In this document: positions 73 through 37,514 of the stretch, piece after piece | Layout of the letters: each line of letters opens with the position of its first letter | Numbering within the stretch: position 1 is the first letter of the stretch | From: Cyanobacteria bacterium bin.51 | GTDB taxonomy: Bacteria; Cyanobacteriota; Cyanobacteriia; PCC-6307; Cyanobiaceae | NCBI GenBank assembly: GCA_013203655.1 | Contig: JABMPN010000079.1 | Location: 1-37,514 of the forward strand | Length of the DNA: 37,514 nucleotides | Reading direction: 5' to 3' | Position numbers and translations under genes: made by a program | The notes under the pieces: generated by a model | Database searches by the model: none | The model's input: the letters and a program-made list of their open reading frames with translations, nothing else | What the model was told of the DNA's origin: nothing

Positions 73-100
73 GCCGCGGCTTCTGTCGCGGCTTTTTTTT
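73..100 (+). terminator. Rho-independent terminator of an upstream transcript
   Basis: GCCGCG (73-78) pairs with CGCGGC (87-92) over an 8-base loop and is followed at once by eight T (93-100). It ends a transcript entering from the left, before the porin gene. Confidence 0.85.
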
Positions 101-316: not shown

Positions 317-325
317 GTGTGAGGA
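317..325 (+). promoter_or_regulatory. Porin ribosome-binding site complementary to the Yfr1 core motif
   Basis: GTGTGAGGA (317-325) contains the purine-rich Shine-Dalgarno sequence of the porin, ending 4 bases before the ATG at 330. Its reverse complement, TCCTCACAC, is nine of the eleven bases of the conserved unpaired core of the cyanobacterial small RNA Yfr1. Pairing here would cover the ribosome-binding site. Yfr1 is known to act on porin (som) mRNAs in Prochlorococcus; action at this site is inferred. The same nine bases also occur in the porin 3' UTR (2046-2054). Confidence 0.55.
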
Positions 326-329
326 TCCA

Positions 330-2021
330 ATGAAACTGTTCCAGAAATTCCTGCTGGCGCCGGCTGCCCTTGGGCTACTCAGCCCGCTGGCCGCGTCTGC
401 TTCTGATTTGAATGTTGATGGCATCAATCTTGAGGCCATCAACGCCTATGCCAGCTCTGGTTCCGCGAAGAGCCGGAATCAAGTCACCAGCATCACCCAG
501 TTCTCTGATGTTCAACCAACGGAATGGGCCTATCAGGCTCTCTCCAATCTGGTTGAGCGTTACGGCTGCGTGGCTGGCTATCCCGATGGCACCTTCCGCG
601 GTAAGAGGCCGCTGAGCCGCTGGGAAGCCGCTGCCCTGCTCAACGCCTGCCTCGATCGGATCACCGAAGTGACCGATGAATTGCGCCGCTTGATGAAGGA
701 GTTCGAGGTTGAACTTTCCGTGCTCAAGGGCCGGGTCGATGGCCTTGAGGCCAAAGTAGGCGAACTCGAAGCCAGCCAGTTCTCTACCACCACCGTGCTC
801 AAAGGTGAAGCCAACTTCGTACTTGGCGCTCTGAATGCAGGTGGTAATCGCCCGGGTCTTGGTGTGTTCGGGGACGGTTCCGGAAATGCTGCAGAGAAGT
901 ACAACCAGCAGTTCGGTGCCACTACGTTCAGCTATGACGTTCGCCTTAATCTTGAGACGAGTTTCACGGGCAAAGACCTGCTGTTCACCCGCCTTCGCTC
1001 CGGCAACTTCGAAAATGCCTTTGCTGGAGATGGTGTCAACCTGACGGCACTGGATAAAGCAAGCAGCGGCTTCAGCGGGAATAATAGTGTCGGCATCGAC
1101 AGGCTTTATTATCGTTTCCCCGTTGGCAACCAATTCACTTTTGTGGTTGGTCCTCGGGCCAGGAATACCGAATCCTTGGCTGTCAGGCCTTCGGTTTATA
1201 AAAGCGATATTCTCGACTATTTCTCCGTCTACGGAACACCTGGCGTCTACAACAAAGCCACAGGAGCGCTCGTTGCTGCCATCTGGAAGCAGGATGTCGA
1301 GAGAGGCCAGGGTCGCTTCAGCTTTGCGGCCAACTATGTCGCCCAGCAGGGCAATGTTGGTCAGGTCTTTGATGGCGATCCCAATTCCTGCTCAAGCAGT
1401 GAAGGCGGTATCGGCACCGATTGTGCCCGCGGCAGTTTTACGGCCCAGTTGAATTACACGGCCCCCCAGTGGAACATTTCGCTGGCTTACCGCTACGGGC
1501 AACAGGCCACGAACTTCCGGCGCGGCACCAACTTCGTTGCTTCCGACAGCTGGTTCCTGGCCAACGGTGAATCCAACAGCTTTGCGGTCAATGCCTACTG
1601 GCAGCCTAAGAAGGCTGGGTTCATTCCTTCGATCAGCGTCGGCTGGGGCCTGAATTCCCTCTCAGGGAATGCAACGACTCGCTCCGGCGATGAGTTCGAA
1701 ACTCCCTATGTCACTCAGTCACAGAGTTGGTTCGCCGGTCTGCAGTGGAAGGATGTCTTCGCCAAGGGCAATGCTGCCGGTATGGCCGTCGGTCAGGCCA
1801 CCTATGCCACCCAGTTGTCTTCAGGCTCCATTGATGGACTGAACACCACGCCCGACGACGGCAACTTCGTCTGGGAGTGGTGGTACAAGTTCCAGGTCAC
1901 CGACAACATCTCAGTCACCCCGGCGATCTTCTACCTCAGTCGTCCGCTGGGACAATCCACCGGCTCTGACAACAGCTTCGATGTCTTCGGTGGGCTGATT
2001 CAAACTACGTTCAAATTCTGA
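330..2021 (+). CDS. SLH-domain outer-membrane porin (SomA/SomB type, 'iron uptake porin' family)
   Basis: A 563-residue outer-membrane channel of the cyanobacterial Som/OprB-like family. It begins with a signal peptide (residues 1-24, cleavage near ASASA/SDL). An S-layer-homology domain follows (about 48-110, with FSDVQPTEWAYQAL and GYPDGTFRGKRPLSRWEAA), which in this family anchors the protein to the cell wall. Next come a charged coiled coil (about 111-150) and a beta-barrel ending in phenylalanine (GGLIQTTFKF), as expected for barrel assembly. The frame is open from 240, but the ATG at 330 gives the signal peptide and has GAGGA just upstream. Two cysteines, in DPNSC and TDCARG, could form a loop disulfide. 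The gene is flanked by terminators and so is probably monocistronic. Transport specificity cannot be read from the sequence. Confidence 0.93.
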   Translation: MKLFQKFLLAPAALGLLSPLAASASDLNVDGINLEAINAYASSGSAKSRNQVTSITQFSDVQPTEWAYQALSNLVERYGCVAGYPDGTFRGKRPLSRWEAAALLNACLDRITEVTDELRRLMKEFEVELSVLKGRVDGLEAKVGELEASQFSTTTVLKGEANFVLGALNAGGNRPGLGVFGDGSGNAAEKYNQQFGATTFSYDVRLNLETSFTGKDLLFTRLRSGNFENAFAGDGVNLTALDKASSGFSGNNSVGIDRLYYRFPVGNQFTFVVGPRARNTESLAVRPSVYKSDILDYFSVYGTPGVYNKATGALVAAIWKQDVERGQGRFSFAANYVAQQGNVGQVFDGDPNSCSSSEGGIGTDCARGSFTAQLNYTAPQWNISLAYRYGQQATNFRRGTNFVASDSWFLANGESNSFAVNAYWQPKKAGFIPSISVGWGLNSLSGNATTRSGDEFETPYVTQSQSWFAGLQWKDVFAKGNAAGMAVGQATYATQLSSGSIDGLNTTPDDGNFVWEWWYKFQVTDNISVTPAIFYLSRPLGQSTGSDNSFDVFGGLIQTTFKF

Positions 2022-2026
2022 TCTGT

Positions 2027-2063
2027 CCCTGAACGGCTCAGGGCTTCCTCACACAACCTCTTT
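2027..2063 (+). other. Porin 3' UTR: hairpin plus single-stranded CCTCACACA segment
   Basis: Right after the porin stop codon, CCCTGA (2027-2032) pairs with TCAGGG (2038-2043). An unpaired pyrimidine-rich segment with TCCTCACACA (2046-2055) follows, then the terminator hairpin. Hairpin, CCUCACAC segment, terminator is the same order of elements as in the small RNA Yfr1. The nine bases TCCTCACAC (2046-2054) are perfectly complementary to the porin's own ribosome-binding region (317-325). It may be a 3'-UTR-derived regulator or a long-range cis contact; both are inference. Confidence 0.45.
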
Positions 2064-37156: not shown

Positions 37157-37514
37157 TGCGCAGGAGCCGCGAGGCGAGTGTTGCAGGACCGAGCAGTGGA
37201 GGAGGCGGAAGCCAACGATGCTGTAGGTTTCAAAAGCGGTTGAGAGACCGTCGAGTCGTGAGCCTGAGAGGGTGGAGCGACGCACCTGGACAAAAGAAAA
37301 GTTTAGGAACCGACGCTTTTGCTGCGTTGAGGCCTGGATCTGCGTGAGTGCGAGTGAACGGAGCGAGAGCGATGTGAGTTTGCATTTTGCAGATTGGGTT
37401 TATTAACGAACGAGCAGCAAAGGTGTGAGGTCCCGTCAAAAAGAAACAAGCAGCTTGTTTGTTGGGATGTTGCGAGTAATGCTTTCACGGGCGTTGCTGG
37501 TGATGAAAAGTTCC
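37157..37514 (+). other. Gene-poor, G-rich leader running off the window; possible rRNA or long mRNA leader
   Basis: No open frame here looks like a complete protein. The plus strand is strongly G-rich: by my count 91 G against 46 C in 37141-37380, unlike the coding DNA to its left. Such skew is typical of structured stable RNA and rRNA operon leaders. A small hairpin (37311-37316 with 37324-37329) and a palindrome (37444-37460) are present. No motif of RNase P RNA, tmRNA or 6S RNA was recognised. The last 48 bases form an open frame that might begin a protein. Confidence 0.35.
37444..37460. repeat. Perfect 8-bp inverted repeat around one base
   Basis: AAACAAGC (37444-37451) and GCTTGTTT (37453-37460) are exact reverse complements separated by a single A. 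As DNA it resembles a dimeric protein-binding site; as RNA it would form a short hairpin. Confidence 0.6.

Follow-up and report, generated by a model that had tools for sequence, protein, structure and literature searches.

The window analysed here, 37,514 nucleotides long, opens contig C58 in a draft genome of 2.08 Mb that is 81% complete. A gene on its forward strand (330–2021) encodes a Som-family porin of 563 amino acids with SLH and OprB domains (Pfam PF00395, E 1.1e-8, and PF04966, E 1.8e-18). The list of open reading frames places its start at the GTG at 240; the ATG at 330 is the conserved start and yields a signal peptide. The nearest named relative among the genomes compared was Synechococcus sp. 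SynAce01, with a porin identity of 88–89%. On the same strand, 4 nt 5' of the ATG, GTGTGAGGA (317–325) lies over the Shine-Dalgarno sequence as a Yfr1-type target, and 24 nt past the stop codon (TGA, 2019–2021) the 3' UTR carries TCCTCACAC (2046–2054), which comprises nine of the eleven bases of the Yfr1 core and is the exact 9-bp complement of the first site, so that both halves of a possible pairing lie on one porin gene. In the predicted fold, a 6-bp hairpin (CCCTGA/TCAGGG, 2027–2043) precedes the unpaired core, and the intrinsic terminator of the porin transcript follows at 2064–2088 (stem 2064–2083). The earlier note had pointed out the target, the same nine bases in the gene's own 3' UTR, the hairpin and the terminator, and its coordinates were correct throughout. 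The element sits between the porin gene and a gene for a DnaJ-domain protein (2147–2812), immediately 3' of the porin terminator. In the porin leader a local CCTCA/TGAGG hairpin (308–324) could close the Shine-Dalgarno sequence, and many porin leaders of the clade have a similar CCTC 5' of the target site. Elsewhere in the window, a noncoding GTGTGAGG within AAAGGTGTGAGGTCCC (37423–37430, near the contig end) is possibly the Yfr1-type 5' site of a gene past that end.

A third copy of the motif, absent from the earlier note, was present upstream of the porin. The eight bases CCTCACAC at 41–48, the last eight of the core, lie in the 10-nt loop of a forward-strand stem-loop (32–57; TGGCTGAC-CCCTCACACA-GTCAGCCA) with a perfect 8-bp stem, a Yfr10-like layout. 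An intrinsic terminator follows at 73–100 (forward strand; stem 73–92, 8 bp, then 8 T), and the fold of 20–105 had a z of −4.45 against shuffles. A short tandem repeat (GGCAACCCTTGTGT and onward, 121–151) separates this terminator from the porin leader. SynAce01 has two porins in tandem, of which the second is the orthologue of the window gene; the same hairpin follows the first, in its 3' UTR (locus L090). Because of this synteny and the shared gene-1 hairpin, positions 1–100 most probably represent the 3' UTR of a tandem porin situated upstream, beyond the contig end. The beginning of the missing gene may be C91:1–198, which holds the initial portion of a porin preceded by a leader of the gene-1 type. 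The relevance to paralogous porins that had been suggested for the element is borne out in that both tandem genes carry it. A further CCTCACAC was noted in a small noncoding hairpin (TCGAA...TTCGA) near a contig start (L182 165–172, corresponding to G000:C144:165–172); no recognised porin adjoins it, and it is a possible additional Yfr10-like element.

Almost all cyanobacteria have Yfr1, and its abundance is constantly high. The 5' site is an already known kind of Yfr1 target and was near-universal in the cyanobacterial porins examined: GTGTGAGG occurred at the ribosome-binding site (RBS) of nearly all picocyanobacterial porins with this leader, and the site was found in 30 of an additional set of 40 porins, most of which belong to other cyanobacterial families. 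The window gene follows the pattern of a Som porin mRNA targeted by Yfr1, with the core complement (317–325) at its RBS and an OprB domain in its product. In E. coli, Yfr1 represses the leader of the MED4 porin PMM1121 by a factor of 4.7, and this repression is cancelled by Yfr2 (PMC6778093). Neither the RBS site nor the 3' motif was present in the porin paralogues L048, L049, L051, L053–L055, L057, L062, L067, L068, L070, L082, L084, L087 and L089, which apparently lie outside Yfr1 control.

The distribution of the 3' motif was determined in approximately 75 porin loci gathered by protein similarity alone. CCTCACA was found within 100 nt past the stop codon in 58 of 94 distinct clade porins with the 5' site vs. 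2 of 24 without it (Fisher p 1.7e-6, with genes treated as independent) and in 1 of 13 more distant porins. Since the other 36 of the 94 porins with the 5' site had no 3' motif, the motif is not essential. Among all 7-mers of those porin 3' UTRs CCTCACA ranked first, ahead of the terminator words, and the reversed words of the motif occurred once. The density of CCTCACAC was 2.90/kb in porin 3' UTRs (42 matches in 14.5 kb) vs. 0.0106/kb in the remainder of the same loci (11 matches in approximately 1.04 Mb, both strands, after removal of the RBS complements), an enrichment of about 275-fold. In the 2.08-Mb assembly only 23 occurrences were counted, three of them within this 2-kb porin locus, one each at the RBS of another porin fragment, in Yfr1 and at the Yfr2 5' end, and the rest mainly in coding sequence. 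In SynAce01 (G002), six inverted pairs of CCTCACAC spaced 42 bp apart (e.g., C1:119152 and 119194) probably belong to a repeated IS-like element.

Among the orthologues of the window gene, CCTCACAC stood 5' of the terminator in 13 of 15 and CCTCGCAC in the other two, where pairing with GUGUGAGG is still possible through G-U pairs; the full 11-nt ACTCCTCACAC was present in the porin 3' UTRs of several relatives (e.g., locus L167). On its own, the window with its two exact 9-mers (0.27 expected) is only suggestive, because 2 of 100 shuffles also gave two copies. This is the one result in favour of chance or a by-product of terminator composition, an origin refuted by the 7-mer rank, the stem-loop shuffles described below and the approximately 275-fold enrichment; with the motif also retained through the turnover of stems and flanks, its probability is negligible. 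The earlier note had made its proposal depend on conservation of the 3' motif in the porins of relatives, and it is this conservation, in 13 of 15 orthologues and 58 of 94 porins, that led us to take the observation as real. The element was frequent among Synechococcus/Cyanobium-type genomes from fresh and coastal waters and was also found in some other members of the family (loci L095, L302, L313, L315). It was absent from most Prochlorococcus-like and non-picocyanobacterial porins; in the additional set of 40 porins, drawn largely from other families, CCTCACA past the stop codon was rare (2 of 40). This distribution suggests that the 3' element is specific to certain lineages and was added to an old link between Yfr1 and porins.

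Two layouts were distinguished: the motif is either unpaired shortly before the terminator, as in Yfr1, or placed in a hairpin loop, as in Yfr10. The loop layout occurred in 22 of 70 motif-bearing 3' UTRs, with loops of 10–16 nt and perfect stems of 8–14 bp. Since the counted stems had been picked for pairing, shuffling of the flanks was the proper control, and each stem had p below 0.01 in it. In the other motif-bearing 3' UTRs, the stretch from stop codon to terminator was mostly unstructured around the motif, resembling the 3' half of Yfr1. Over the motif-bearing 3' UTRs, the motif had a mean predicted unpaired probability of 0.82. Stem pairs were counted from the loop outward, as loop lengths differ and MAFFT did not register the stems. 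Across 14 representative stems, each of the eight pair positions showed 3–5 pair types and no mismatches; like the association counts, this covariation count treats related genes as independent. The loop motif stays while the stem sequence turns over between lineages. A short, exposed and conserved motif with stems free to vary would also suit a protein-binding or RNA-stability element acting by means other than base-pairing, a role once proposed for the Yfr1 core itself (PMC2190773). We consider this very improbable here, as the motif is the exact complement of both the RBS site of the same genes and the Yfr2 5' end.

The likeness to Yfr1 (RF01116) itself was partial. As in Yfr1, the core (CUCCUCACAC/CCUCACAC) is unpaired and followed by a G+C-rich terminator, and the possible partners, porin RBS and Yfr2, are the same. 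The order of hairpin, core and terminator in the window also agrees with that of Yfr1, as the earlier note had observed. Of this arrangement, the order of motif and terminator and their short spacing were kept across orthologues, whereas the first hairpin was not: it was strong only in the window genome and SynAce01, and other orthologues had stems of 5–6 bp or none. The window element also differs from Yfr1 in being encoded in a porin 3' UTR, the Yfr1 locus being guaB-yfr1-trxA, and in its incomplete version of the invariant ACUCCUCACAC, since 2046–2054 is without the first two core bases. No match to RF01116 was obtained in the scan of the window, nor in positions 1–2200 even at E 10. With nine of eleven core bases, no Rfam match and a separate Yfr1 at C83:8221–8277, the window 3' UTR was rejected as a true Yfr1; what stands of the proposed likeness is a conserved element built on the Yfr1 core.

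Additional RNAs with the Yfr1 core are known as Yfr10, Yfr12 and Yfr18 in Prochlorococcus and as Syr5 and Yfr104. In Yfr10 the core lies in a loop on top of a stem (PMC6778093), and the same arrangement was present at 32–57 and in the 22 of 70 porin 3' UTRs. The MED4 members of this group, in contrast, are intergenic RNAs beside Yfr2-family genes (Yfr10 adjoins one in high-light Prochlorococcus), while the window element is a predicted porin 3' UTR and Yfr2 lies here on contig C102. The Yfr10 layout of the gene-1 hairpins, with the motif in the loop, would fit a free-standing sRNA gene of that type, with its own promoter, just 3' of each porin. Because the motif mostly starts 10–60 nt after the stop codon, such a promoter would fall inside the coding sequence, and a single terminator is shared; in addition, no sigma-70-like promoter for the 3' element was seen in positions 1–2200, which is weak evidence. 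A separate gene is therefore decidedly unlikely, and a released RNA, given that no promoter was seen upstream, would probably need processing.

A true Yfr1 lies elsewhere in the genome (C83:8221–8277), and a member of the Rfam family Cyano-1, which we take to be Yfr2, was located at C102:14403–14473, with the 5' end ATTTGTGTGAGGGG. Yfr2 is an RNA known to sequester Yfr1; it had not been considered in the earlier note. Pairing totals including opening and duplex energies (RNAup-like) for the porin leader were −9.4 kcal/mol with its own 3' motif, −8.4 kcal/mol with the upstream hairpin and −12.7 kcal/mol with Yfr1, and those for Yfr2 were −12.1, −13.7 and −12.1 kcal/mol, respectively. By these computed energies, the 3' element pairs better with Yfr2 than with the porin RBS, and the loop of the upstream hairpin matches Yfr2 perfectly over 11 bases. 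When leader and window 3' UTR were co-folded as whole molecules, the result did not exceed that of shuffles, of which 37 in 200 did as well, since a local hairpin partly closes the RBS. In Yfr2 of the source genus (L120 1501–1571, i.e., G000:C102:14403–14473), GTGTGAGGGG replaces the usual GTGTGAGGAG, and the matching change is seen in the gene-1 porin hairpins of the genus, which read CCCTCACAC or CCCCTCACAC.

Comparison of Yfr2 5' ends across approximately 50 genomes showed that the last base of the 3' motif partly tracks the state of Yfr2. With Yfr2 of the GTGTGAGG form, position 8 was C (CCTCACAC) in 32 of 33 3' motifs; where Yfr2 no longer has this form, in Cyanobium-type genomes and a small number of others, C was the last base of 9 of 33 motifs and CCTCACAA was usual (p 2.5e-9, relatedness ignored). 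The porin RBS was constant, GTGTGAGG, whichever Yfr2 form was present. Porin paralogues far apart on the tree had the same A form in Cyanobium-type genomes, which indicates a shared trans partner or conversion of 3' ends. As pairing of CCTCACAA is not restored with every Cyanobium Yfr2 variant, a relaxed constraint after the loss of GT from Yfr2 could also account for the A form. This GT of the conserved Yfr2 5' GTGTGAGG was lost in L205–L209 and in the Cyanobium-type genomes of L032–L047, and the genomes of that lineage that were checked (L169–L174) retained the full Yfr1 core. The Yfr2 change may represent only a few events, clustered on the tree.

One reading of these data is that the 3' element is solely a decoy for Yfr2, with no action of its own on the RBS. 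It would account for the 11-base match of the upstream hairpin, which pairs better with Yfr2 than with the porin leader, and for a motif position that varies with Yfr2 while the RBS stays unchanged; Yfr2 pairings within the same genome also exceeded swapped ones (permutation p 0.04). The same was true of the RBS, however (p 0.005), so that the swaps make no clean choice between the partners. The motif is moreover nearly restricted to porins with the RBS target, and the Yfr2 changes on which the argument leans are few and clustered. We regard an exclusive decoy as unlikely, and both the porin RBS and Yfr2 are plausible partners of the 3' element.

The presence of complementary sites on one transcript, co-occurring gene by gene, would equally suit pairing in cis, in which the 3' motif would form a 5'–3' loop with the RBS of the same mRNA and hide it or exclude Yfr1. 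The two sites are 1.7 kb apart, with coding RNA and translating ribosomes between them, and many copies lie in closed hairpin loops, which suit kissing contacts in trans; the variation linked to Yfr2 would also be left unexplained. Pairing in cis is accordingly quite unlikely.

The 3' motif is conserved and exposed, linked to porins with the 5' site and complementary to its possible pairing partners. We favour the interpretation, to which we assign a probability of roughly one half, that porin 3' ends carry a conserved, exposed mimic of the Yfr1 core that would act by base-pairing and provide negative feedback through the RBS, through Yfr2 or through both. The porin mRNA, intact or as the 3' piece that RNase E leaves and the terminator protects, would behave like additional Yfr1. 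By base-pairing with GUGUGAGG at the RBS, its 3' motif would prevent translation of its own mRNA and of those of sister porins; by binding the Yfr2 5' end, it would also increase free Yfr1 and thereby repress porins. Through both branches, the level of porin mRNA would feed back negatively on porin synthesis across paralogues. We infer here transcription to the terminator, release or processing of a fragment, action in trans, and the direction and size of the effect. More tentatively, and in our view rather doubtfully, porin mRNAs could combine a 5' Yfr1 target with a 3' Yfr1 mimic and so set the balance of free Yfr1 and Yfr2, with consequences for other Yfr1 targets too.

Autoregulators derived from 3' UTRs have a precedent in OppZ and CarZ of Vibrio (PMC9438474). 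As in those of Vibrio cholerae, the 3' UTR element is complementary to the translation start of its own transcript, here over exactly 9 bp. Unlike OppZ, which is Hfq-dependent and released by RNase E within an operon, the element belongs to a single porin gene and its release is putative; unlike either, it reproduces the core of a global sRNA that already exists. ApcZ of Synechocystis is likewise a cyanobacterial regulatory RNA from an mRNA 3' end, with another gene and another target, and it is made from its own promoter. SroC, a 3'-end sponge, provides a model for the capture of Yfr2, although SroC activates its parental mRNA by capturing GcvB, and the expected outcome of capturing Yfr2 is repression of the parental mRNA.

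While the 5' target is known, no description of the 3' element was found in the literature searched, and prior notice is possible. The portions consulted of the papers on Yfr1, Yfr10 and Yfr2 (PMC2190773, PMC2518516, PMC6778093, PMC6974561, PMC4734099, PMC5069720, PMC7368042) and the literature covered on cyanobacterial 3'-end sRNAs contained no mention of porin 3' UTRs. Dozens of genomes share the pattern, which may mean that porin mRNA feeds back on its own production. It offers an example of a motif kept in a loop while the stems are replaced, and the conserved Yfr1 core at the 3' ends of Yfr1's own porin targets is a candidate answer to how the effect of Yfr1 on porins is tuned. If the proposed interpretation is true, this would be a cyanobacterial autoregulatory 3'-UTR element whose sequence reproduces the seed of an already existing global sRNA; if porin mRNAs also set free Yfr1 and Yfr2, these abundant transcripts would control other Yfr1 targets, in the cell wall and carbon metabolism, besides themselves.
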